Positions 1-58,400 of a DNA stretch of 64,000 nucleotides are shown here, one piece after another. This DNA comes from Planctomycetales bacterium (GTDB lineage Bacteria > Planctomycetota > Planctomycetia > Isosphaerales > Isosphaeraceae). The translations under genes were made by a program, and so were the position numbers. Each line of letters starts with the position of its first letter. Position 1 is the first letter of the stretch. The DNA lies in the NCBI GenBank assembly GCA_027449865.1, contig DAIDKV010000022.1, forward strand, positions 1-64,000. Reading direction: 5' to 3'. The notes under the pieces are model-generated. The model ran no database searches and was not told the DNA's origin. It was given only the letters and a program-made list of their open reading frames with translations.

Positions 1-102
1 ACAACGGCCCGACAGGTGGCTAGGAAATGCCAGGCGTCTTGCGTAACCTCTTGTCTTGATGTGTCTGTCTGAAGACTTCATCAGGCCCCAGAGGTCGGAG
101 TG

Positions 103-1793
103 ATGCCTTACCGATGGCCGGCGGATACCGATTTCGTGCCCTGGGAGCTCGATGTTCTCGATCGCCGTTGTGGGGCCTGTGGCCGCCGGATGCACATCTG
201 CGATCACCGCTTTCGCCACCTGCACACCCTCGAAGGGCCGGTGGAACTGATCTGCAAGCTCAATCATTGTCCGGATCCCCATTGTCCCGGGCATACCAGG
301 ACCAAGAGCCCCGAGGTCGAAGCGACCATCGCCCCGCCCCATTGGGCTATCGGCTGGGACGTCTTCTGCTGGATCGGCCATCGCCGGTTCTCTCGGCACT
401 GGGCCATCCCCCAGATCCGAGCCGAACTCCTCGACGCCCATCGGATCAAGCTGTCAGATGACGCCATTGGCCAGTACATCCATCGCTACCAGGCGATGCT
501 CGCGGCGCGGCAGCAAGACCCCGAGGCCCTGCTCCGGCTGTACCAGGCGGTCGATGAGATCATCCTCTCGATCGACGGCCTTCAGCCCGAGAAGGGGCAT
601 GAGACCCTTTATGTGGTCCGGGAGCTGACCTGCAAGCGGGTCTGGTTCGCCGAGGCGTTGATCTCCGCGACGGCCGACGAGGTGCGGCGCCTCATCGCGC
701 AGGCCAAGGGGTGGACCGAAGCCCTGGGCAAACCGGTGGCGCTGTGGTTGTCGGACCGGCAGGACGCGTTCGTGACCGGCATCGCGGCCGAATTCCCCGG
801 CGTGCCGCACCGCTACTGCCAGAACCATTTCCTCCGCGATGTGGCCAGGCCCGTGCTCGAGGCCGACAGCCACACCAAGGTCCAGATGCGCAAGAAGGTA
901 CGTGGCCTGCGGAAGATCGAGCAGGCCGTGCTGAAACGACGGGGCGTCGCGGGCCCCGAGCCGGCTGCCGGAGCGGATGCCGCGGCCACGACGGCGGTGA
1001 TCATCGAGCCGGTGGAGTCGGCGGCGTCGCCGGCCGATCCCGCGGGCGCCGTGGTGCTCGACTACTGCCCGTCGGTACGTGGCATCCTCAACGACGACCA
1101 GGGTGGGCCGCTCCAACCGCCTGGCCTGCGGATGGCCCGGGCCCTGGACGAGGTTCGCGAATCGATCCAGCACAACCTGGACGAGAAAAAAGGGGGTTCG
1201 CGGAACAGCAACTCGGTCGCCTGGCCGGTTGCATCGACCGGGGCCTCAACGAAGTAGAGGCCGAACAGGAGACGATTCGAGGCTACGTCGAGGACATCGA
1301 GGCGGTGGCCGCGACGCTCGATCCTGGAGGGGGGAGCAGTGCGGACCGTCGCCGGGAGTTCGAGGAGCTGATCGATCGGTTTGAGCGCGGCGAGGACGCG
1401 ATCCGTCCGAAGATGGCCCGGGTGATGATCAGCTTCCTCGCGGGGTTGTTTGTGGGCGAGGGGACGTTCGAGGAGATCCAGGACGATCTCGATCTGGAGC
1501 GATGGTTCCGCGTGCCCAAGAGTCACGAGCGGCGGATTCACGGTCACCGCCACGCAGGTGTGCGGATCGTTCAAGAAGGACCGACGCTGGTGCACGCGTT
1601 GGATGCCCACATCGCGCACCCGGGACCGTTCACCGCGACCGACCTGCTGCCGTATCGGACGGCCCGAGAGCCGCCGAGCCAGAGAGAGGCGATGGACCGC
1701 CGGAAGATTATGAGGAAGGCGCGATCCTCGAAGAAACGGCCGCTACTTCTGGCCGACCTGGAGAGGCGTTATCGAGAAGCGCCCGTGCTTTAG
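103..1793 (+). pseudogene. DDE transposase, split by a -1 frameshift
   Basis: The first frame gives about 380 residues. It starts with a cysteine-rich zinc-ribbon-like region (CGACG, then CPDPHC) and continues with a DDE/MULE-like core: SIDGLQPEKG carries the first Asp, WLSDRQDAF the second, and a CQNHF motif follows. The matching C-terminal part (FVGEGTFEEI, PKSHERRIHGHRHAG, ending at 1793) lies in the -1 frame. The two frames meet at an A6G5 run at 1186-1196, so one base has been lost there or the ribosome or polymerase slips. ATG at 103 follows GGAG closely. I could not find terminal inverted repeats, and the left end may lie outside the window. The IS family is not assigned. The transposase reading is secure from the motifs; activity is doubtful. 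Confidence 0.75.
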
Positions 1794-1827
1794 CCCTGTC
1801 GCGGGTCGTTGCTTATTGAGGGTATTG

Positions 1828-2150
1828 GCTCAAATCCCCGAGAATTCTGGTGCGTAAGCCCTGAGCAATCCCTGCTTTGAAATCTGGCTCCTGATGCACT
1901 TCGAGGATGTCCCATTCAACCGGAATCCCGAAGGCAGGAGCTTGCCGAGAACGCCGGCGGGCTCCTGAAAACCCTGGTTGGTCGCCAGCTCAGGCCGGGG
2001 ACGGATTACATCGACCACTTCCTCCCGAATACCGACGAGGCGATCGCCCGCGCCAGGGCCCTTGATACGCGCCCCGAGGATCGATGGCCTTTCGGCCTCG
2101 GAACGCGCGTTTATCGGCTCGTGGGGCAACTTCGGCCGCGATCGATCTGA
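1828..2150 (+). pseudogene. RloB-like protein, 3' remnant with stop and frameshift
   Basis: Reading the plus strand gives AQIPENSGA-stop-ALSNPCFEIWLLMHFED, then, after a frame change near 1930, QELAENAGGLLKTL and TDEAIARARALD through TRVYRLVGQLR to a TGA at 2148-2150. The SNPCFE(I/L)WLLxHFED signature and the AIARA...LD...RVYxLV tail are those of RloB-family proteins, which are found near restriction-modification and other defence loci. Only the C-terminal third is present. It carries an in-frame TAA at 1855 and a frame shift, and it begins about 35 bases after the transposase stop. The inference is that the element inserted into, or recombined with, an rloB gene whose 5' part is lost or upstream of the window. 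Confidence 0.6.
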
Positions 2151-2163
2151 AGGCGACCGGCGC

Positions 2164-3891
2164 TCAGGGCACCGACCGCCCGAGCTTCAGCAGCAGCCGC
2201 TCGGCTCGGTAGACGATCTCGACGTCCTTGTTCGAGAGCGCATCCTCCAGCACAGGGACGGCGGCGGGGCCCATCTCGAAGAGGCGTTCCTCCGCCTGGT
2301 CGCGGGCGCGCGACGATTTCTCTCCGAGGAGCTTCACCAGCCCCCGGGCGCGGTCCTGGAGCCTCGGGTCGATCCCGTGGACCACGATCGTCGCCGTTCG
2401 GGCGAGTTTCTTCGGCGGGGGGAAGACGTCGAGCGTGACGGCCTCGTCGAGCGCAGGACGCGAGAGATGGACCAGGACGACCAGCTCCTTCGGCTCGAAG
2501 AGCCGCGGACCATACTGGTCGAGGAGGAAGTTCGCCAGATCCTCACGCAGACCCTGGCCGACCAGCCGGCGGACCATCGTCACGCGGGTCATGTCGCGGT
2601 AGCTTGGGTCGGAGGGCGGCCTCGTGGTCGACATGACCAATTTCACCGGTGGACCTTCGATCACGCGATCCTTCCGGTCGGCCTCGGCGAGGCGGGCGGC
2701 GGTGGTGATGAAGAGGCGGCCGTCCTCGGTGACACGGTAGCTCAGCCCCGCGCCGCCGAGAACCTCCGCCATCGCGTCCCTTGCCGCGATGCTCGGCGCC
2801 CGGAGAGTTGTCGGCTGGTTCATGTCGATCTCGGCCCGCGCGATCGCCTTATCGTCCAGCTCGTACCGGACGCGGGCCTGGCCCGCGATCATCGCGATGG
2901 CCTCCTTGCGAGGGACGCCGTCGGCATTCACCTGGATCGATCGGTTCATTACCTGGTCGACCCGGGCTCGCATGGTCGCGTCGCCCTCGGCCGGAATTGG
3001 CGGCAGTTCGTCCTCTTCCGCCTTCTTCTTATCCTTCGCGGTGGCGTCGGCCTCGTCGAAGACGGCCTGCGCTTTCTGATCGGGTGACTTCTTCGTGTCG
3101 GCCTTCTTGATGGCCGCCTCTTTCTTTTCCTGCTCGGTCTTGCCGGCGTCCTTCGCGTCGGGCTCGTCGGTCGGTTCGGGGGCGGCGGTCGGCAGGGCAT
3201 CGAGCCAGCCGACCCGGTAGCCCGAATCCGCCGGCGCGATCACGGCGACGTCCAGCAGCTTCCGGTTCGTCAGATTTTGAAGCGTGTACTCGTCGGGACC
3301 ACCCCGGATCTTCACCGGTACCGGGATTCCCAGCTCGGCGTCGTAAGCGATGAATCGATCCGAATGCGATTCGTGCTTCAGGTAAAGGGCTTTCTCCTTC
3401 TCGCGGAGCCGGTGCATCCAGTGGTTCTCCGTCAGATAGTTCAATGGGAGGTCCAACGGCGGAGCCGTCGAGAGACTCGACTTGAACCACTGCAACCGGC
3501 CGGATCGCTCGGTACTCCGCGGCCAGTGCGCCAGGAACGTCCCCTTCTTGAGCCGGAGGTCGACGTCGACGTCCTTCGCGGGCTCGCCGAAAAACTGGAC
3601 CACCGAAATGGGGGCGATCGGAAATCGGAACGTCCGGTCCTTGTCGTCGATGTTCGGCCGGCTGGTGCCCACCGAGCCGGGCATCGCACTTCTGTAGATT
3701 CGGGTGGTGTTGATGGTTGCCTGTGCGGGATTGCCGACCCAGACCGACCATTCATAAACCTCGACCGGCGTTTCGGGACGGTCCCCATCGCGCTCGATAT
3801 CGTCGGGACGTGTGGCCCCGATCGCGATCGAGAGCAGGGTTGTCAGGCCGATGGAGAGGGCGGTGATCCTTTGGGCGAGGGGGCGTCGCAT
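2164..3891 (-). CDS. Exported protein with STN-like region, function unknown
   Basis: A 575-residue protein with an N-terminal signal peptide (hydrophobic stretch around residues 9-25 ending SIAIGA). Residues about 60-230 form a beta-rich region I do not recognise. Residues about 235-300 are a low-complexity Lys/Glu/Asp linker. Residues about 310-395 (RVDQVMNRSIQV, GQARVRYELDDKAI, GLSYRVTEDGRLFIT) resemble the secretin/TonB short N-terminal (STN) fold seen in many planctomycete exported proteins. The C-terminus (residues about 520-570) looks like a HEAT-type helical pair. It lies 52 bases downstream of the NPCBM gene on the same strand and is probably the last gene of a three-gene unit. No enzymatic motif is visible; a cell-envelope or periplasmic role is inferred. 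Confidence 0.6.
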   Translation of the reverse strand: MRRPLAQRITALSIGLTTLLSIAIGATRPDDIERDGDRPETPVEVYEWSVWVGNPAQATINTTRIYRSAMPGSVGTSRPNIDDKDRTFRFPIAPISVVQFFGEPAKDVDVDLRLKKGTFLAHWPRSTERSGRLQWFKSSLSTAPPLDLPLNYLTENHWMHRLREKEKALYLKHESHSDRFIAYDAELGIPVPVKIRGGPDEYTLQNLTNRKLLDVAVIAPADSGYRVGWLDALPTAAPEPTDEPDAKDAGKTEQEKKEAAIKKADTKKSPDQKAQAVFDEADATAKDKKKAEEDELPPIPAEGDATMRARVDQVMNRSIQVNADGVPRKEAIAMIAGQARVRYELDDKAIARAEIDMNQPTTLRAPSIAARDAMAEVLGGAGLSYRVTEDGRLFITTAARLAEADRKDRVIEGPPVKLVMSTTRPPSDPSYRDMTRVTMVRRLVGQGLREDLANFLLDQYGPRLFEPKELVVLVHLSRPALDEAVTLDVFPPPKKLARTATIVVHGIDPRLQDRARGLVKLLGEKSSRARDQAEERLFEMGPAAVPVLEDALSNKDVEIVYRAERLLLKLGRSVP

Positions 3892-3943: not shown

Positions 3944-6694
3944 CTACTTCCCCTTCGGCGCGGGGCGGTAGAGGCGGGCGTTGGCCCAGATGACGCGGTC
4001 GCCAGTGTCCTGATCCTTGCCGAAATCGATCACCAGGCGGAGTTGTTCCACCCCGGCGACCGGGAGCGTGAGCTTCACCGGCGGGTCGGTGGCCTTCAGG
4101 TCGGGATTGGCGAAGAGTTCCCTGCCGTCGGCCAGGACCCGACAGTCAACCCGCCCCTGCCCTCGGGCCGATTCGTCGAAGCCAACCGTCGCCTCGAAGG
4201 TGGCATACTTGCCGTTCAGGTCGTAGGTCAGCGACGATTTTGAGTGGACGGCAACGCCGCGGGCGTACGTCCGGCCATCCATCTTCAGCGGATGGCCGAG
4301 CAGGTTGACGTCGCGACGCCAGGTGAGCTTGCGGCCGAAATAGGGTGACTCCTCGACCCGGCTCGGCGCGAGATCAGAGAGGTACGTCATCCGGCCGCCG
4401 CGGAACTGAACGTCGCTGACGTCGGCCGCCGGCAACTTCATCTCCTGTCCCCAGGGCGATTGGACCTTCCAGGTCACCGTGTCGAGGTCCTTCCATTGGC
4501 CCGAGACGGCGAGGCCATCGGGAAGCTGGAACCGCGCCCGAAGCTGGTCGGCGGGGTCGGATTCGTTTCGAGCGGCGAGGATCAGTCCCTCGACCAGGGC
4601 CATCGGCAGGGTCCGGCTCTTGCCCTGATACCGGAAATGCATTCGGTCTCCGCTGGCACCCTCGACGACGCCTGGAATCGCGATCACCTCGCCGCCTCGC
4701 GTCCGGGCGAGTAAGAGATCGTCCGTGCCCCGGGTCCTGAGCCGGCGCGCGAACGACTCGGGCGATTCCCTGCGGTCGATCGGCGCGAAGTGGGCGCCAA
4801 CGATCCGCGTGAGCGGGATTGTGAGTCTGTCGTTCCAGGTGGTCGTGAGGGTCATCGCGTCGTCGGCGATCGTCTCGAAGGTTCCGGCGATCACCTCGTC
4901 GCCGATCATCGAGACGCGGACGCCCAGCGGCGGGATCGAGGGTGCTTTTGGGTCGATCGCCAGGTCGGGTTTCGTGTGGATCTTCGCCTTCGCCGTTGCG
5001 TTGGCGTTCTGGTTGTCCTCGTAAACGAGGGTGATCGTGAAGTCCTTGTCGAAGCCGTCGCCGGCGGGCGGTTCGAGGAAGAGGTCGGCGGATGTGTCGG
5101 TCCCCGATCGGCGGACGATGATCGGCCAGTCCTCTGAGTCCGTGGTATCGAGCCGCCAACTTGCCGGGCCTCTGTCTGTCTGGCCGGTGATCGTGATTTG
5201 CCTGATCGGCGAGGGTCGAAGGTTGTGCAGCGCCAGGTGGATATCTCGGATGCCGTTCGGCTTCGGATTCAGCCTGGGAATCTTCTTCGGGGCGGTCGTC
5301 CCGGGGAGCGGCGCGTTGACGTCGTCCTCCGGCTCGTCCTTCTTCCTGTCGACCTTTGGGGGCCCCGACGGTTGGGCCTCGGGCTTCCGGGCGTCGAGAG
5401 TTTTGGGATCGTTTGGATCCGGGGCGAAGACATCATCGGGGAGGCCGGGCGGCTTCTTTTCGGGCTTGAAGTTGAGGCCGGGCATGGTGAAGTCGAGGTT
5501 GGGCTGATCGACGAAGCGGGCGACCATCGCCGGCGCGCGTTCGTAGTGGATGGTATCGATCTCGTCGAGGGGGATACGGGCCTTCGGCTCGGGCGGTTTC
5601 GCGGGCTGGGCCTTCGCGCCGGGGGCCTTCGCGTTGGCGGGCTGGGCGGCTGGCGTGGCGGGCCTTGCCGCGGGGGCCGACGCCGGTGCGGGTGCGGGCG
5701 CCGCCGGGGCCGCGGCCACGACCATCACCATGCCGCCCGCCGGGGCGACCATCACCGCGCCGGCCGGGAGTGAGGCGGTCGGGGCGACGGGCGCGGTCGT
5801 CGCGGGTTGCGGGGTCGGGTTTGGGGCGTTCGGCTGGCCGCCCGGCGGCGTTTTTGGCTGGCCGCCGATGATGAGGAGGTCCTTCTCGATCGCGGTTGGC
5901 TCGGCGTAGACGACGCGGTCGAAAACCGTTCGGACGATCGGACCCAGGCCGTTGATTCGCTGGGCCCGGATCGTCAGGCTTTTCAGGATCACATCGACCG
6001 GCTCGACGCCGTTGCGATTGGTGACAAACAGCTTCACCGAGGCCACGTCCATCGCCTGAGGGAAGGCCATCTGGCCGAGGTAACGCGACTTTCCCGATCG
6101 GGCGTCGAGAACCTGATATCGGATCGTGTTCCCCTCGCGGTGGAACTCCAGGCGGAACGTCGAACCCGAGGCAGGGAACGTGTGCCTTGGCGGCTTCGGC
6201 GGCTTGGCCGGAGGCCCGGCGCCCATCCCCATCATCTGCATTTGCATTTGCATTTGCATCTGCATTTGCATTTGCATCTGGTTGGGGTCGTTCGGCTCCT
6301 TCTCGATCGGGCGGTAGACGTCGGCGCCGTTGGGCTCGATCAGGCGGATGAGGGTCAGGTCGGGCTGGTCGATGTTCTGGAAGGCGATCGCCATCCCGAC
6401 CGCCGCACCGTCTTCCTGGGCGGGCTTCGGCAGCTTGCGGATGGCGAAGTCGGCGAGGAGGGTGAAGTCGCCGCCGAAGCGGACCTGCTGGGGCGTCTTC
6501 CATCCGGTCTCGGGGAGTCTTGGATCGAGAACGACGTGCAGGCCGCCATCTTCGCGCTTGAGTTTCGCCTTCTCGCCGAAGGTCTCGGCGTCGAACGTCG
6601 ACTGGTCGAGGGCCTTCGCGTCGAGCGCTCGCACGTATTCGGAGTCGCCGACGAGTCCCACCAGCCCGATCAAGATGGCCGCCAGACCGTGCAT
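3944..6694 (-). CDS. Large exported NPCBM/NEW2-domain protein
   Basis: A 916-residue protein. I chose the ATG at 6694 rather than the longer frame because GGGAGGAG sits five bases upstream and a signal-like MHGLAAILIGLVGLVG follows. The C-terminal ~140 residues match the NPCBM carbohydrate-associated beta-sandwich (RGVAVHSKSSLTYDL, then FEATVGFDESARGQGRVDCR and VIDFGKDQDTGDRVIWANARL). The middle is rich in Pro/Ala low-complexity segments (residues about 290-400). Near residues 140-157 there is a Gln-Met run encoded by hexamer repeats. The family usually binds glycans or glycosylated surfaces; here no catalytic domain is visible. It sits between the DUF4175-like and STN-like genes with gaps of about 50-100 bases, suggesting co-transcription. 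Confidence 0.7.
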   Translation of the reverse strand: MHGLAAILIGLVGLVGDSEYVRALDAKALDQSTFDAETFGEKAKLKREDGGLHVVLDPRLPETGWKTPQQVRFGGDFTLLADFAIRKLPKPAQEDGAAVGMAIAFQNIDQPDLTLIRLIEPNGADVYRPIEKEPNDPNQMQMQMQMQMQMQMQMMGMGAGPPAKPPKPPRHTFPASGSTFRLEFHREGNTIRYQVLDARSGKSRYLGQMAFPQAMDVASVKLFVTNRNGVEPVDVILKSLTIRAQRINGLGPIVRTVFDRVVYAEPTAIEKDLLIIGGQPKTPPGGQPNAPNPTPQPATTAPVAPTASLPAGAVMVAPAGGMVMVVAAAPAAPAPAPASAPAARPATPAAQPANAKAPGAKAQPAKPPEPKARIPLDEIDTIHYERAPAMVARFVDQPNLDFTMPGLNFKPEKKPPGLPDDVFAPDPNDPKTLDARKPEAQPSGPPKVDRKKDEPEDDVNAPLPGTTAPKKIPRLNPKPNGIRDIHLALHNLRPSPIRQITITGQTDRGPASWRLDTTDSEDWPIIVRRSGTDTSADLFLEPPAGDGFDKDFTITLVYEDNQNANATAKAKIHTKPDLAIDPKAPSIPPLGVRVSMIGDEVIAGTFETIADDAMTLTTTWNDRLTIPLTRIVGAHFAPIDRRESPESFARRLRTRGTDDLLLARTRGGEVIAIPGVVEGASGDRMHFRYQGKSRTLPMALVEGLILAARNESDPADQLRARFQLPDGLAVSGQWKDLDTVTWKVQSPWGQEMKLPAADVSDVQFRGGRMTYLSDLAPSRVEESPYFGRKLTWRRDVNLLGHPLKMDGRTYARGVAVHSKSSLTYDLNGKYATFEATVGFDESARGQGRVDCRVLADGRELFANPDLKATDPPVKLTLPVAGVEQLRLVIDFGKDQDTGDRVIWANARLYRPAPKGK
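6233..6280 (-). repeat. Hexamer microsatellite encoding (Gln-Met)8
   Basis: Eight contiguous copies of CATTTG or CATCTG on the plus strand encode alternating Gln and Met on the minus strand inside the NPCBM gene. The third-position T/C variation does not change the amino acids. The unit length keeps the reading frame whatever the copy number, so this tract can expand or contract without breaking the protein. Confidence 0.9.
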
Positions 6695-6797
6695 CCGCTC
6701 TCCTCCCGATCGCGAGACTCGATCTTCCGGAATCCCTGAGAAAATGGGGACAGGCACCTCGAAGACCTGGAGCCATTCCCCGTTTTCTCAGGGGACG

Positions 6798-9032
6798 CTA
6801 CGGCCGGTCCTCGAAGACTTCCTGTGTTCGCGTCTCGCGTGCCTTTTCGGTCGCCTTGAGGATCTGGTTTTGCATTCGGATCACCTCGGCGACCTGGTTG
6901 ACGACGTCGACGAAGCTCTCCCACTGCGACATCTGGTCGAGGATTTCTTTCATCCTGCCGACGACCTGGCCGTGGAGCTTCCGCGCGGTTTCCTCGCTGG
7001 CGTTGGCGCGGTTCCCCGCGCCTGAAAGCGCCTGCAAGGCTCCCCGGAGCTCGATCATCGGACCCGCGTTCAGGGCCTTGATCGGGTCGATGATCCCCTG
7101 CTGGAGCAGCCGGTGTGACTTCGGAGAGCCGACCTGGTTGAGCTTCATTTCCTGGAGTGCATCCCCGATCCGGTTACCGATCTGGTCGAGGTGGCGTGCG
7201 GTTGCCTGGACAACCTGGGTGATCCTCGCGTGGTCTTCGGGTGTCGGCTTGCCGTCGAGAATGGGGCCCTGCTTCTCGATCGATTCGAGAGCGGCGATGA
7301 ACTTCGTCCGCTCGGAACGCTGGCGGAGGAGGATCTCGTAGAAAAGCTCCTCGGGAGCGACAACCTGCAATTGCAACGGTGTCGATCGACCCGTTTGTGG
7401 GCCTCGGGCGCATTTGTCGTCGGCCTCGGCGAGGAACCGCAAGAGGGTTCCAGGTGTCGCGGGATCGGTCATCAGCGAGAACTCGTGTCGCGCCTGGTGG
7501 TCGAGCGGCGGGCGCCCGCTCTCGGAGGGGAGCGGGATCTTCACGGTCTCCTGTTTGGATTTCGTCGGAGTCGCCCTGTCTTTTTCGCTGGCGACGGTGG
7601 TGCGGTCGAACTGGAGCCGGAGCGCGGCGAGGCCGATGTCGTCGGTCGCGGCGATCGAGAGCGGGATCGTGGCGACGGGCGTGACGTGGACGCCCACTCC
7701 CACCGCGCGCAGGGTCACGCGGGGATCTCGGTCGCGCATCAGGCCGATGGAGAGGAAGGCCGGCTTCGATTCGAGTCCGGTTCCCTTCGAGGTCAGGCCG
7801 ACTTCCAGCGTGGTCGCTTCGCGGAGAGTCCACTGCGTCGCGAACGTTTTTTCATCGATCCTTCGGAGCGGCGGGGCATTTCCCGACTGGATCTTGAGCC
7901 TGGCCTCGGCGAGCGGCTCGGTCCCGATCAGGGTCATCTCGACCTGCGTATCGGGCAGGAAGACGAGGTGCTGGCGGGGGTCGTCGATCGATCGGAAGCC
8001 CTGGTCGCTCCCGCCCGGTTCGCGGACGCGGATCTTCGTGGCGGCCAGCGCGGGGCGGTCGACGCGGTCGAGGACGAGCGGTTCGAGCCAGTCGTCGCCG
8101 CCGGTCAGCTCGAAGGTCGAGGTCGAGGCCGAGGGCGGGAACTCGAAGCGGAAGTGGCCGGGCTCGGTCTCGACCATCACCGACTCGTGGGTCTCGCCCA
8201 TCTCCGTCTTCTCTCGGATGGTGACGGATTGGGGATTCACCGGATGCTCGGGTTTGTGACGGAGGGACAGTCGCTCGCCTCGGCCGCCGACGAACCAGCG
8301 CCCCCCCTGCTCTGTCAACATCGGGAGATCGGAGCGGACCTCCAGAACGGCTCGTTCTTCCCGAGGCGCGACGATCCGGCCCCGCTCGTCGAGGCCCACC
8401 ACGCTCAGATAGGTTTGCTGCGGCCATCGCTCGTTCGAGCCGCGGAGCCAGCGCGCCAGGCTCAGCCGGGCGGCGTCGGGCGCGATCGCCGCGAAGGCCG
8501 CGGGGACGATCAGCGCCAGCACCAGCGCCGAGGCGTGCGCGGCGGTTCGCTGGTGGTTCCAGAGGCGTCGCCAGTCGGAGGCCGCCAGCGCCTCGCAGGC
8601 CATCCGGACGGCCAGCCGAACCATCGCCGGAGAGACGGTCGAGCCGGGCTGATCGAGCAGCATGGGGAGCTGCAAAACATCGGCGATAAGCTGGCCGGTC
8701 CCCGGGCGGAACCGGTCGAGGGTCATCGCCAGGGCCAGCTCGTCGAGCCGGGCCGATCGCCAGCGTCGATACGCCCGGACGCCCAGGAACGCGACGAGGC
8801 CGGTCGCCGCGATTGCGAGCAGGACGGCCCGAGCCGGGCGGTCGAGCCGGAGCCACCAGTCGAGCAGGACCAGGACGCCAGCCGTCGCGACGACGGCCGA
8901 GGCGGCGTCGACGGCGAGTTCGAGCGCGAGCTGCCAGGTCAGCCGCCTCCGGATCCGCGCCAGTTCGGCACGCAGGGCCCGCTGCTCTTCCCGGAGCGAC
9001 TCGATCGTCGGCAGTTCCATCGCGGTGGACAC
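6798..9032 (-). CDS. DUF4175-like membrane protein with coiled-coil C-terminus
   Basis: A 744-residue protein. An N-terminal helix (residues about 9-30) is followed by two membrane helices (about 38-62 and 68-90) and a third near 165-190 (ASALVLALIVPAAFAAIA). A long beta-rich exported part follows (about 200-540). The C-terminal ~180 residues are helical and coiled-coil-like. This plan (TM pair, large ectodomain, helical tail) is that of DUF4175-type planctomycete proteins, which usually sit with MoxR/DUF58/VWA (Bat-type) genes. Here the partners are the NPCBM and STN-like genes instead, while Bat-type genes occur elsewhere in the window. The function is unknown; an envelope-stress or surface-assembly role is a guess from family context. 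The first gene of the minus-strand unit. Confidence 0.6.
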   Translation of the reverse strand: MSTAMELPTIESLREEQRALRAELARIRRRLTWQLALELAVDAASAVVATAGVLVLLDWWLRLDRPARAVLLAIAATGLVAFLGVRAYRRWRSARLDELALAMTLDRFRPGTGQLIADVLQLPMLLDQPGSTVSPAMVRLAVRMACEALAASDWRRLWNHQRTAAHASALVLALIVPAAFAAIAPDAARLSLARWLRGSNERWPQQTYLSVVGLDERGRIVAPREERAVLEVRSDLPMLTEQGGRWFVGGRGERLSLRHKPEHPVNPQSVTIREKTEMGETHESVMVETEPGHFRFEFPPSASTSTFELTGGDDWLEPLVLDRVDRPALAATKIRVREPGGSDQGFRSIDDPRQHLVFLPDTQVEMTLIGTEPLAEARLKIQSGNAPPLRRIDEKTFATQWTLREATTLEVGLTSKGTGLESKPAFLSIGLMRDRDPRVTLRAVGVGVHVTPVATIPLSIAATDDIGLAALRLQFDRTTVASEKDRATPTKSKQETVKIPLPSESGRPPLDHQARHEFSLMTDPATPGTLLRFLAEADDKCARGPQTGRSTPLQLQVVAPEELFYEILLRQRSERTKFIAALESIEKQGPILDGKPTPEDHARITQVVQATARHLDQIGNRIGDALQEMKLNQVGSPKSHRLLQQGIIDPIKALNAGPMIELRGALQALSGAGNRANASEETARKLHGQVVGRMKEILDQMSQWESFVDVVNQVAEVIRMQNQILKATEKARETRTQEVFEDRP

Positions 9033-10767: not shown

Positions 10768-11370
10768 CCGGCGCGGGAGCTTGTGAATCCCTCGGGATTC
10801 CACTTGCCCCGCCGCCAGCCAGCATGATTGATTCTGTATCCTGAATACAGGATTTGGGCGGGGAGACATGCGGCTCTCGTTGCCGAACGATGACTCGCTG
10901 CGGACCTTGCCGTACCTGTCGAGGTGGATCAGGCGAGCGGCGGTGTCGGATGTCTCGGTTTTTCATGGGATCTCGGGTCGCTCGACCCCGTGACCCTGCA
11001 AAGCCTGCTTTCGGAACTTCTCGAACTCTCGATTCTTCAGAACGGATCCGGGGCATCGCATTGCGGGCAACCCGGAAGGTTCGTCGTGCGCGCCTTGGGG
11101 AGGTTCGCGCCTCCGGGCGCTGGTTTCTCCTCTCTCGCATGACCATCGGAGCAAGCTCTGAAGATAAAGATGCAGAAGCATATGGGGATGGTGTTCGCGG
11201 GGTCGATCGGCCTGGCTGTACTGGAGGCGGCTGTTGCCGGAGTTCGGCCGACCCAGGCGCAAGAGCCGACCGCGAAGGATCCGGCCCTGGAGCGGGCGCG
11301 CGAGCAGGTCAAGATGCTCGATGATCTGTACAAGAACGCGGTCGTCTCGATCACGAAGAACTACGTCACC
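10768..11370 (+). repeat. Segmental duplication, copy A (truncated)
   Basis: This stretch aligns with 13888-14383. Shared blocks include GGGATTCCACTTGCCCCGCC, a small inverted repeat (CTGTAT...ATACAG at 10834-10850), TCTCCTCTCTCGCATGACCA just before the gene, and the first ~67 codons of the DUF3365 gene. Copy A carries roughly 100 extra bases in the middle. Homology ends abruptly near 11370, where Doc toxin sequence begins. The copies are clearly diverged, so the duplication is not recent. Confidence 0.75.
11170..11370 (+). pseudogene. DUF3365 haem protein, N-terminal fragment
   Basis: The first ~67 codons match the intact gene at 14177 almost residue for residue: the signal peptide, then EPTAKDPALERAREQVKMLD and DLYKNAVVSITKNYV. 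The sequence then leaves homology at about 11370 and reads on into an unrelated frame of a toxin remnant. The haem motif and most of the sensor domain are missing. The upstream GGAG ribosome site of the intact copy has changed here (GGAGCAAG), and the fragment is very probably dead. Confidence 0.75.
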
Positions 11371-11650
11371 GAGCCTCGTGGAAAAGGCCGCCGCGCTGGC
11401 GTTCTCGCTGGTGAAGAATCATCCCTTCTTCGAAGGCAACAAGCGGACCGGTTACGGCGCGATGTTGATGTTCCTCAGCCGGAACGGCTACACGATCGAT
11501 GCCCCGATCGACGAGCACGAGGCCATTATCGTCCGGCTGGCCGCGGGCGAGATCGGTCGCGAGGAGTTCCTGGCCTGGCTCGAATCTGTTATTATCCGAA
11601 AGGAGACGCCGAGGTTGAGGTGGGGCCGGCGACCGGGCGATCCGGATTGA
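11368..11650 (+). pseudogene. Fic/Doc-family toxin, C-terminal remnant
   Basis: The frame reads SLVEKAAALAFSLVKNHPFF and then EGNKRTGYGAMLMFLSRNGY, ending at a stop at 11650. HPFFEGNKRTG is the Fic-type active-site loop of Doc (death-on-curing) toxins, which AMP-ylate or phosphorylate targets such as EF-Tu. Only about 90 of the usual ~130 residues remain, without a start or a partner antitoxin. The 5' side is replaced by the DUF3365 fragment in another frame. The motif itself looks intact, but expression as a working toxin is unlikely. Confidence 0.75.
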
Positions 11651-55061: not shown

Positions 55062-55422
55062 CATCCGCTCGTGCTCGTCGAACACGACACGGAGCGATGC
55101 CCGGTTCCGATCGAACTACGACACGGTGGACGGTATACCAGGTCGGGCGGCCGCGCCAACCCGCACAGCCTCCTCGGCCACCACAAATATACTCGCCAGG
55201 CCTGCCAGCCCTTCCGTTACGACCTACCGCTCGACCTCCGTCCCGCGGCCCCGCCCCTTGGCGACGCGGGAGGGGCCTCTTCTCGTGCGTCGTCCCACAG
55301 CTACGCGACCCTTTCATGCTCCGGCAAGAGGATCGCGTCTGAGCCGGGCCTATCCCCCGCAATACCCCAACCACAGGCGAGGAGACCGGGCACCTGGACA
55401 GTGGATGAGGAATCCGCCTGTT
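55062..55422. other. Intergenic region between convergent genes
   Basis: About 360 bases between the broken paralogue and the end of the WD40 kinase gene. Several frames cross it without recognisable sequence. Terminators for both converging units are expected, but I cannot point to a clear hairpin with a T run. Confidence 0.4.
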
Positions 55423-58400
55423 CTATCGTCGAGTGTTCGGATCGTTTTGCTGCGACCGGTCGCCGTTTCCAAACTCGTGGTGGAGGATGCCCAGCCGGCG
55501 TCGGGAGGCCATCCAGGCGTGGGAATTCAGGAGCCGGAGAGTACCATCCTTGGCCAGTTCCATGCCGGTGGCAACCTGGGTTTCCAGCTCGATCTCCTCG
55601 ACGGGTCGGTCCGATGGCGTTGGAATTTTCCAGAGGTGAGCAGCATCCTGCTGGCCGCCGGAGAGGGCTTTGCGGCCGTCGGGGCTGTAGGCGACGAACC
55701 AGACCTGCCGCTGGTGGGCGAAGGGTGGGCCAATCGGCCGGCCGGTGGTCTTGTCCCAGAGCTGGGCCATGCGGTCGTAGCTGCCAGTGAGGACCGAGCA
55801 GCCATCGGGGCTGAACGCCAGGGCGCGAACGCGGCCGTCGTGGCGGAGCGGCGGCGCGGCCGGATGGCCCGTCTTCCGATCCCAGAGCCGGGCGAGGCGA
55901 TCCCAGCCGCCGGTGATCACGGTGACGCCGTCGGGGCTGAAGGCGACGAGCGAGACCGGCCCGTCGTGGCGGAGCGGGGTGAGCAGGGGCAGGCCGGTGG
56001 CGGTGTCCCAGAGTCGCGCCGTCCGATCGCTGCTGCCCGTCAGAGCGGTCTTGCCGTCGCCGCTGATTGCCACCGCCAGGACCGACCCCTCATGCCGGAG
56101 GGGGGTGAACAGGGGCCGGCCGGTGGCGGCGTCCCACAATCGCGCCGTCCTGTCGCTGCTGCCTGTCAGGGCGAACCGGCCGTCAGGGCTGAAGGCCACC
56201 GCGAGGACCGCCCCGTCGTGCCTCAGAGGCAGGCCGACCGGCTCGGCGGTGGCGGCCCGCCAGAGCCGCGCCGTCCCGTCGTCGCTGCCGGTCAGGGCGG
56301 CCGTCCCATCGGGGCTGAAGGCAACCTGGCGGACGGCCCCCTGATGCCGAAGCGGGCTCGCGATCGGCCGCCCGCTGGGGATACGCCAGAGCCGCGCCGT
56401 CCCGTCATCGCTGCCAGTCAGGGCCGTGGCGCCGTCCGGGCTAATCGCCAGCGCCCGGACGACATCGTCGTGCCGCAACGGTGGCCCGATGGGGCGGGCG
56501 GTCGCGGCATCCCAGACCCTCGCTGTGTGGTCCATGCTGGCGGAGAGGACACGCCTCCCGTCGGCGCTGAAGAGGACCTTGCAGATGAATCCGTCGTGCC
56601 GAATCGCGAGTCCCTCGAGGCTCGCAACCTCCCAGACCTGCACGGCGGGGTCGTTGCCGGCGGTCAGAATGGTCCGACCGTCGCGGCTGAAGGCCACCGA
56701 GGAGACCGAATTCTGGTGCCGCAGGGCCGCCCCTAAGGGCTCCCCAGAGTCGGCCTCCCAGAGCCGCGCTGTCCCGTCGAGGCAGCCGGTGAGGACCCTG
56801 GTTCCGTCGGGGCTGAAGGCCACGGCCTCGACGCAGTGCTGATGGATCATGGGCTTGCCCCGCGGTCGTCCCGAAGCCCGGTCCCAGAGCCGGGCAACCC
56901 CGTCGTAGCACCCAGTGAGCAGGGTGCGGCCGTCGGGGCTGAACGCGACTGAGGAAACGTAGTCATCGTGGGCGAGGGGTATCCCGATTGGCTCGCCGTG
57001 GCGCACATCCCAGAGCCGCGCTGTCCGGTCGAAACTGCCGGTCAGCAAGGTGCGGCCGTCGGGGCTGAACGCGATGGCCCGCACGACGTGATCGTGTCGA
57101 AGTGGGCCGCCGATCGGCCGACCGGTGGCGACGTCCCAGATACGGGCCTCGCGGAGAATCCCGGTGGCAATTTGGGTTCCGTCGGGGCTGAAGGCCGTGC
57201 CGAAGATCGCGTCATCGTGCCGGATCGAGGCCCCGATTCGGCGGCCGGTGGCGACATCCCAAAGTCGCGTCGTCTGGTCGCTCCCGATCGTCAGCAGGGC
57301 CCGGCCGTCGGGCCGGAAGGTCAGAGAGAGAATGGCCGCGGGATGCTCGATGGCTGGGCCGACCTCGCCTCCGGTGGCCACATCCCAGAATCGGATGTGG
57401 CCGCCTTCCTCCGCGGTCGCGACAATCTCCCCCGAGGGGCTCATGGCCGCGGCCAGGAGGGGCCGTTTTTGCTGGAGGCGCAGCCGCAACGGGTGCAACC
57501 GGGGCCGCCAGCCCGCCAGGTTGAGCCGGAAGGCATGCTCGAGAGGGCGATTCCCCGCCTGCGCGGTGATCTTCAGGCCATGGACCAGCCAGAGCATGCC
57601 CGGCCCGACGTCCCCCTGCTCACAGAGCCCCTGGCCGTAATCGTAGGCCAACTCGGCGGTCAGCCGGTCGATCTGCCGCTGGCGGGCCTCGCTTCTGCGG
57701 ACGTGGGCTCGCAACTCGTTCGCCACCCGGTAGTGGTAGAGCGCGAAGCTCACCGAGACGCCCAGGGCGATCACCATTGCCAGGGCGGCCGTCACCATCG
57801 CCAGGGCCAGCGACGGCCGTCTCCGGCTCCATCTCCAGACCCGTTCGGCGGGGGTGGCAGGGCGGGCCCGGACTGGCTCGTCATTGAGGAAACGGTTGAG
57901 GTCTTCGGCCAGCTCTCGCGCCGAGGCATATCGCCGACCTTCCTCCTTCTCCAGGCACTTCAGCACGATCGTTTCCAGGTCACGCGAGATGCCCGGCCGG
58001 CGCCGCGATGGGCGGATCGGCTCCTCAGTGGTCGCCCTCCGGAGGGTCTCCAGGGGCGTTGCGGCGCAGAACGGGGGCGAGCCGACGAGCAGCTCGTAGA
58101 GGATCGCCCCCAGGGCGTAGACATCCGTCGCGGGCCCGACCCGCCGAACGTTGCCGTCGGCCTGCTCGGGCGACATGTAACCCGGCGAGCCCAGAACGGT
58201 GCCGCTGCAGGTTTGCACGTCGCGACGGGCAAGGATCTTCGCCAGCCCGAAGTCGGCGATCTTGGGCATGCCGTCCGGCGTCAAGAGGATGTTGGCAGGT
58301 TTCAGGTCGCGGTGGACGACCCCGCGCTCGTGTGCGTAGTGCATGGCGAGGGCGATCGCCTCGATGAGCTGACCGGCCTCCCGCGGCGACATCGGCGCAT

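Follow-up and report, generated by a model that had tools for sequence, protein, structure and literature searches.

A decayed AbiL-type operon with three nested mobile elements in a planctomycete genome, and a serine-recombinase element family that appears to prefer active-site codons of other mobile elements' genes

The AbiL-type operon and its neighborhood

The window—that is, the whole 64-kb stretch of DNA analyzed—is the first part of contig C22 in a planctomycete genome of 8.48 Mb assembled into 278 contigs. It opens with a transposase reading frame beginning at 100/103, as a first-pass annotation had recorded, and farther to the right carries the 3′ half of an rloB gene (1865–2150, plus strand), which is identified by PF13707, PADLOC, a target duplication, and alignment with congeners, and which contains a frameshift in its first part. 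Positions 1858–1965 match PF13707 with 33.3 bits (cut-off 31.5; E = 6.9e-8; profile positions 103–121), bearing out the RloB assignment previously made for 1828–2150, and the hallmark SNPCFEIWLLMHFED is indeed read at 1864–1908 in frame +1. A further piece in frame +3 (1881–2147) reaches 17.2 bits, below the cut-off, at profile positions 156–195, and gives no PADLOC match.

Both the rloB 5′ half and a partner gene, for which an upstream extension had been proposed, were found on contig C243, the last 141 bp of which are identical to the first 141 bp of the window. The 5′ half (L005 8574–8921, where L005 numbers the C243 locus) covers PF13707 positions 1–108 with 58.0 bits, and is preceded by an intact ATPase gene (L005 7229–8590; AAA_21, 107.5 bits), the end of which, at 8590, overlaps the rloB start at 8574. 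PADLOC assigned the ATPase gene to AbiLi (E = 3.5e-82), and both the rloB 5′ half (E = 2.4e-7) and window positions 1858–1965 (E = 2.1e-7) to AbiLii. Given the AbiLi ATPase gene overlapping AbiLii/rloB, the locus is an AbiL-type operon, with the RloB profile and the upstream AbiLi gene both present and the effector gene interrupted. A PF13707 search of the same genome gave four places, namely an intact gene on C184, a weaker match on C181, the window piece, and the C243 piece (1–108). The C184 frame (G000, 55107–55655) encodes 221 residues, and the ATPase match adjoining it contains a TGA codon.

The orthologous locus in the congeners G001 (contig C21) and G003 (C48) holds one intact 208-aa abiLii gene, in the order class II tRNA synthetase gene (probably lysS), abiLi, abiLii, and a conserved host gene that in the window occupies 2164–3891 (minus strand; 91% identical) and gave no Pfam match at E 0.001. 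The decayed operon has the same two genes on either side. The arrangement in the congeners suggests the ancestral state. At the short spacer between the rloB stop and that host gene (2151–2163), blastn showed about 1.19 kb more in both congeners, including a 383-aa open reading frame on the other strand. Because the missing 5′ half lies on C243 and the gene is intact in G001 and G003, the RloB match in the window is not due to chance; comparison with the two congeners also confirmed that the frameshift is real. With abiLii both split and frameshifted, the system is presumably dead. What remains here is an AbiL-type anti-phage operon (abiLi ATPase plus abiLii/rloB) in a state of ordinary decay.

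The first-pass annotation had further linked the gene with restriction loci and placed it in a defence island. PADLOC was run on ten neighboring proteins, seven of which gave no match. Of the other three, an ABC transporter ATPase matched mad3 best (E = 1.2e-32), a 210-aa protein matched PDC-S07 (E = 2.2e-5), and a protein with a Fic fold, encoded about 9 kb away, matched PDC-S23 (E = 1.3e-10); all three matches are read as cross-hits through shared domains. Neither restriction genes nor a second defence system were found among these ten proteins, and a defence island is unsupported by what was scanned. Elsewhere in the neighborhood, positions 3944–6757 (minus strand) encode a 937-aa protein with an NPCBM domain and a run of Met-Gln repeats, and positions 11234–11650 encode a Fic/DOC-fold protein (42 bits on PF02661) that overlaps another reading frame and is possibly a degraded toxin–antitoxin gene.

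Three nested elements between the rloB halves

Between the two halves of rloB lie three nested elements—an ISAs1-family insertion sequence (IS), a large-serine-recombinase (LSR) element, and the window IS. In rloB, the 5′ half runs to L005 8921 and the 3′ half from window position 1865, with the 8-bp duplication GCAATCCC on both sides, its right copy (1865–1872) opening the 3′ half. Directly inside this duplication stand the inverted ends of the ISAs1-family IS, TCAGGGCATACGCACCAG (left, L005 8922 on C243) and TCAGGGCTTACGCACCAG. Its transposase on C243 is interrupted, and the parts to the left and right of the break reach 307 and 44 bits, respectively, against the NCBIfam family profile NF033564 (cut-off 70); family membership is indicated by the 307-bit match, by the TCAGGGCNTACGCACCAG repeats, and by the target duplication. 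According to the start point chosen for the repeat, the duplication is 8 bp (GCAATCCC) or 10 bp (AGCAATCCCT) long; ISAs1-family target duplications measure 8–10 bp.

The 3′ end of this IS occupies window positions 1812–1864 (plus strand), and comprises the last transposase codons, a TAA at 1855–1857, and the right repeat GGTGCGTAAGCCCTGA, which pairs with the left end on C243. The TAA lies inside the terminal repeat and ends the frame of that transposase, before rloB resumes at 1865. Accordingly, of the two lesions that had been ascribed to rloB, the frameshift stands, but the nonsense codon is rejected as being the ISAs1 stop.

Within the ISAs1 transposase gene, between L005 10049 and 12588, is the 2.54-kb LSR element. 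The window IS splits the 3′ end of the ISAs1-family IS, with another 8-bp duplication, CTTATTGA, on both sides, the left copy on C243 ending at L005 12781 and the right copy being window 1812–1819. The nesting of the three elements is close to certain. In the order of events that it implies, the ISAs1-family IS was the first to enter abiLii, and the two other elements then landed in that IS, with the LSR element entering its transposase gene at the codon for the catalytic glutamate.

Two other accounts of this picture were weighed. The 141 bp shared by C243 and the window are also identical to the end of contig C241 (G000:C241:19835–19975; L024 11836–11976), and, being common to C243 and C241, mark a branch in the assembly; the C241 end may belong to another copy of the window IS, the right side of which is unassembled, and it adjoins, by eye, a gene resembling an alpha-amylase. 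Although this branch would leave room for an artefact in which C243 and C22 were never neighbors and unrelated contigs were joined, such an artefact is extremely improbable, since continuity across the join is seen in the rloB profile (1–108, then from 103–121 onward), in the terminal repeats of the ISAs1-family IS, and in both 8-bp duplications with their matching copies. The identical gene order in the two congeners also supports the join. We likewise give almost no credence to the original proposal that the window transposase entered rloB directly and damaged a defence island, with a nonsense codon and frameshift arising later. The transposase element and the RloB piece do lie within 55 bp of each other, a TAA does stand just ahead of SNPCFEIW, and the frameshift is genuine. 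However, the window IS has its own duplication, CTTATTGA, inside ISAs1 sequence, the duplication in rloB, GCAATCCC, differs from it and stands at the ISAs1 ends, the TAA belongs to the ISAs1 terminal repeat, and the ten neighbors contain no second defence system. Direct insertion is rejected on the two separate duplications, and the transposase does not abut rloB, with 53 bp of ISAs1 (1812–1864) in between. What had been rightly recognized is a truncated RloB-family defence gene damaged by transposition; the culprit is the ISAs1-family IS, and not the window transposase.

The window IS and its two-frame transposase

The innermost IS spans 2–1811 (plus strand), as delimited by its imperfect terminal repeats, CAACG(G/A)CCC…, and its 8-bp duplication. 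No family profile was matched above a curated cut-off, the weak matches to MULE/Mutator and to IS66/IS256/ISL3/ISKra4 all being below theirs. The transposase (100–1793, plus strand) is read in two frames, 100–1257 and then frame +3 from about 1188 to 1793, which are joined at GAGAAAAAAGGGGG (from 1183), containing an A6G5 tract (window 1183–1196). All four orthologues examined (L242–L245; 68–78% identity) have the A6G5 tract in the same frame and then the −1 frame for the second part, with the second part of L242 matched over only 35 residues. Decay of the transposase by frameshift was rejected because the tract is the same in all four, and programmed −1 frameshifting is probable.

The LSR element and its ends

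Resolvase, recombinase, and zinc-ribbon domains all score over their cut-offs in the two LSRs scanned (L125 and L111), neither of which matches DUF4368. Intact LSRs of the G065 and G001 types are 705–714 aa long. The element on C243 is 95.1% identical over 2,544 bp to an element in G001 that lies in another ISAs1 gene (RGHWSVE/NRLHW versus RGHWGIE/NALHW, with the slash marking the junction). In the same genome as the window, contig C133 carries a 75% identical LSR element in a different ISAs1 gene (29% protein identity), yet at the same codons, RGHWGIE/N. The C243 LSR contains an in-frame TAG and the C133 LSR a frame change, and both copies in this genome look dead, as judged from their reading frames. 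XisF (NF041201) is the best NCBIfam match of the first part of the C243 LSR, and membership was rejected, this part (L005 10355–11476, before the TAG) scoring 76.2 bits against a cut-off of 375. LSR relatives (E ≤ 1e-60) were found in 21 of the family's 45 genomes, and are multi-copy.

Identical copies define the ends of the element. Genome G065 contains 13 copies of 2,516 bp each, identical to the base, the flanks of which diverge at GAG, with GAG at both ends in 13/13; four identical 2,632-bp copies occur in Singulisphaera acidiphila. The element thus has att-like ends on both sides, and identical copies of it as well as empty sites were observed. When the ends of three elements were rejoined, a dyad with its axis between the G and A of GAG was seen in each (15/25 in G065, 14/25 in C243, and 13/25 in C133), in every case the best axis among those scanned and picked as such. 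This position of the axis fits a GA crossover core.

The target codon

In G065, the GAG at 10 of the 13 copies is the Glu codon of an R-W-x-x-E motif in transposase open reading frames. These 10 copies represent seven left contexts if L114 is grouped with L113, and the left fragment of one copy per context was scanned (L112, L113, L117, L119, L120, L122, and L123). A Pfam transposase match was obtained in six of the seven, that of L120 being to PF01609 with 21.2 bits, below the cut-off of 23; the left piece of L117 (130 aa) had no Pfam match, and neither did that of L153. L117 joins pieces of two different IS, and is perhaps a chimaera formed by recombination between element copies. The other three G065 copies (L111, L115, and L118) lie in no recognized mobile gene and gave no Pfam match. 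In Singulisphaera acidiphila, three of the four copies are at IS5-like R-x-x-[IV]-[IV]-E sites, the fourth, L133, being in no recognized mobile gene.

The position of the junction recurs across different targets. The left piece of L112 aligns to the Tn5 transposase up to residue 326 and the right piece from residue 327, with E326 of Tn5 being the third catalytic residue, the catalytic Glu. Of the 13 target fragments with any PF01609 match, 10 end at position 161–166 of 200—at 164 in L005, L025, L126, L173, L174, and L131, at 162 in L119, at 161 in L120, and, in antisense, at 166 in L165 and 165 in L166. The matches of L132 (110), L113 (116), and L123 (140) end elsewhere, short of the fragment end, and the right fragment of L160 starts at PF01609 position 164. 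A probability of 1.2e-12, which counts 10/11 PF01609 matches without L113 and L123 and ignores relatedness, is not relied on. All three PF13358 matches end at positions 123, 123, and 125 of 146 (L171, L127, and L159, respectively), with L127, at 17.6 bits, below the cut-off, and all eight IstB left fragments tested (PF01695) end at 203–204 of 238. Furthermore, five ISAs1 targets are only 26–46% identical to one another and have the site in common, a site also found in the G065 and Singulisphaera targets, with which the ISAs1 genes showed no blastp match at 1e-3.

Uninterrupted copies of the site are also present. In G065, 25 such sites match the pattern spanning the L113/L123 junctions with at most three mismatches, compared with 0 for the control. 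The looser motif CGNTGGN6GAGN18AAG occurs 59 times versus 16 times for its reversed control, many of the 59 occurrences being repeats of a few identical sequences.

Breadth of targets across the LSR family

With one genome taken per species, 194 LSR relatives were found, the best 80 of which were taken as loci and 75 examined, after dropping two partial loci (L176 and L179), a masked one (L200), and two copies of L223 (L224 and L225). In 39 of the 75, a tblastn match to Pfam-confirmed target fragments was found near the element end, where nearness was judged by the printed distances, 238–591 bases from the LSR gene for left matches and 13–158 for right matches; matches farther off or to an uninterrupted gene (L159 left, L166, L167, and L172) were not counted. 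Among the remaining 36 loci and L162, fragments were listed for 25 in all, and one fragment each from 20 loci was submitted to Pfam, which confirmed 10 more (L159, L164, L165, L166, L169, L190, L192, L202, L206, and L213). A mobile-gene flank was thus confirmed in 49 of the 75 loci drawn from the best 80 of 194, leaving 26 without a confirmed one. Many loci are non-independent, being identical copies within one genome or lying on rhizobial contigs that break within the element. The hosts of the 49 include planctomycetes, Streptomyces, Azospirillum, rhizobia, and others. Seven loci with a mobile-gene flank recognized by eye only (L157, L161, L188, L194, L197, L204, and L205) were left out of the count, as was L167, at an IstA-type fragment (PF22483). 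L163 had been a candidate for interrupting a tyrosine integrase; it was dropped and not counted, because the integrase fragment, cut off by the end of the contig, adjoins the element.

The IS21 helper gene istB is the target in Mesorhizobium, Rhizobium altiplani, and a Hoeflea MAG, the source of the eight left fragments that end at PF01695 203–204. In Bradyrhizobium, Azospirillum, and some others, the insertion lies at a similar point of istB, with the orientation of the LSR reversed. The Mesorhizobium and Rhizobium insertions in istB are in the sense orientation, and the opposite direction at an istB end was noted in L181, L183, L198, L203, L210, L212, L216, and L218. Further targets are rve integrases (L164 and L213) and group II intron reverse transcriptases (L202 and L206), the reverse-transcriptase/maturase fragment in the latter two starting at the element end, with PF00078 matched from positions 14 and 16. 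As separate observations, L170 adjoins an RHS repeat gene and L211 an AHH nuclease gene, and the right flank of L186 (Bradyrhizobium) opens with sequence resembling the first part of another related element, which may be a tandem insertion.

Interpretation

A preference of the LSR family for active-site codons of other mobile elements' genes is well supported by these sequence comparisons. In the proposed mechanism, the family would integrate by site-specific recombination, the strands crossing over at the GA of a Glu codon (GAG) or, in istB, at that of an Asp codon. The target would be a short DNA stretch coding for a conserved motif, such as W-x-[IV]-E and similar ones, in the enzymes of other mobile elements. 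The LSR itself would perform the recombination, guided by the DNA sequence alone. The explanation as a whole—a decayed AbiL operon, three nested elements, and an LSR site-specific for codons of mobile-element enzymes—commands high confidence.

A broader proposal, that this widespread bacterial serine-recombinase element family consists of specialized parasites of other mobile elements, with branches differing in their targets, is rather probable. The branches would respectively use the active-site codon of DDE transposases (ISAs1, IS4, IS5, IS701, and IS630 types), a fixed point in istB, and the genes for rve integrases and group II intron reverse transcriptases. By inserting there, LSR elements would disarm the host element while using it as a harmless landing site in nearly every new host, and the preference may have arisen from the abundance and dispensability of transposase genes and from their presence in new hosts.

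Two readings would dispense with such specialization. That insertions simply pile up in dispensable DNA, with no real target preference, is very unlikely: hosts such as G065 are indeed rich in IS, with 25 copies of one kind of site, and some LSR copies lie elsewhere, but the matches end at one codon instead of being spread (PF01609 10/13, IstB 8/8, and PF13358 3/3), and the divergent ISAs1 targets share their site with each other and with unrelated targets. Greater weight, while still on the doubtful side, is given to a plain multi-targeting LSR, the short DNA motif of which happens to match multi-copy transposase genes, without any evolved specialization. The excess of CGNTGGN6GAGN18AAG over its control in G065 suits this reading, given that a motif and many IS together could yield much of the bias. 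However, related branches use other conserved motifs of different genes (istB, the NPIE of IS630-type transposases, rve integrases, and group II intron reverse transcriptases), and so one fixed motif cannot account for the targets.

LSRs in general, and multi-targeting ones among them, are already known. The target preference looks new, and a search of the open-licence PMC literature found no paper describing insertion of LSR elements at the active-site codons of transposases, which is weak evidence of absence. If upheld, it would be a clear case of mobile elements parasitizing and switching off other mobile elements. In addition, related site-specific integrases with different targets would form a natural set from which to learn how LSRs choose their sites, a matter of importance for genome engineering.

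Comparison with known systems

Mobile introns and inteins home into conserved active-site codons, and the LSR elements resemble them in that they enter a highly conserved coding motif and thus find a site in new hosts; they differ in showing no sign of splicing, the interrupted transposase frame closing soon past the catalytic Glu, and in that their enzyme is a serine recombinase. With the XisF-excised fdxN-type elements they have in common a serine recombinase inside a gene-interrupting element, but the XisF score is below the cut-off and the LSR relatives are multi-copy.

The host operon resembles AbiL in its two overlapping genes, an AbiLi-like ATPase gene followed by that for an RloB protein, and departs from it in that the effector gene abiLii is split and frameshifted. 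AbiLii is described as a TOPRIM_OLD toxic effector, with RloB related to OLD_TOPRIM (PMC10440598), and AbiL is counted among the ABC-ATPase/Toprim systems (PMC12409363).

As for the LSRs, Durrant et al. (2022; PMC10083194) describe multi-targeting enzymes in a clade that includes TndX-like ones and mostly carries DUF4368; among the targets named there are competence genes, a magnesium chelatase/protease, and a prolyl isomerase. In G065, one identical LSR is found in more than three unrelated target genes, as in the definition given there, and the resolvase, recombinase, and zinc-ribbon domains are likewise shared with the LSRs of that account. Unlike the clade as there described, L125 and L111 have no DUF4368, and the targets are concentrated on the active-site codon of mobile genes.
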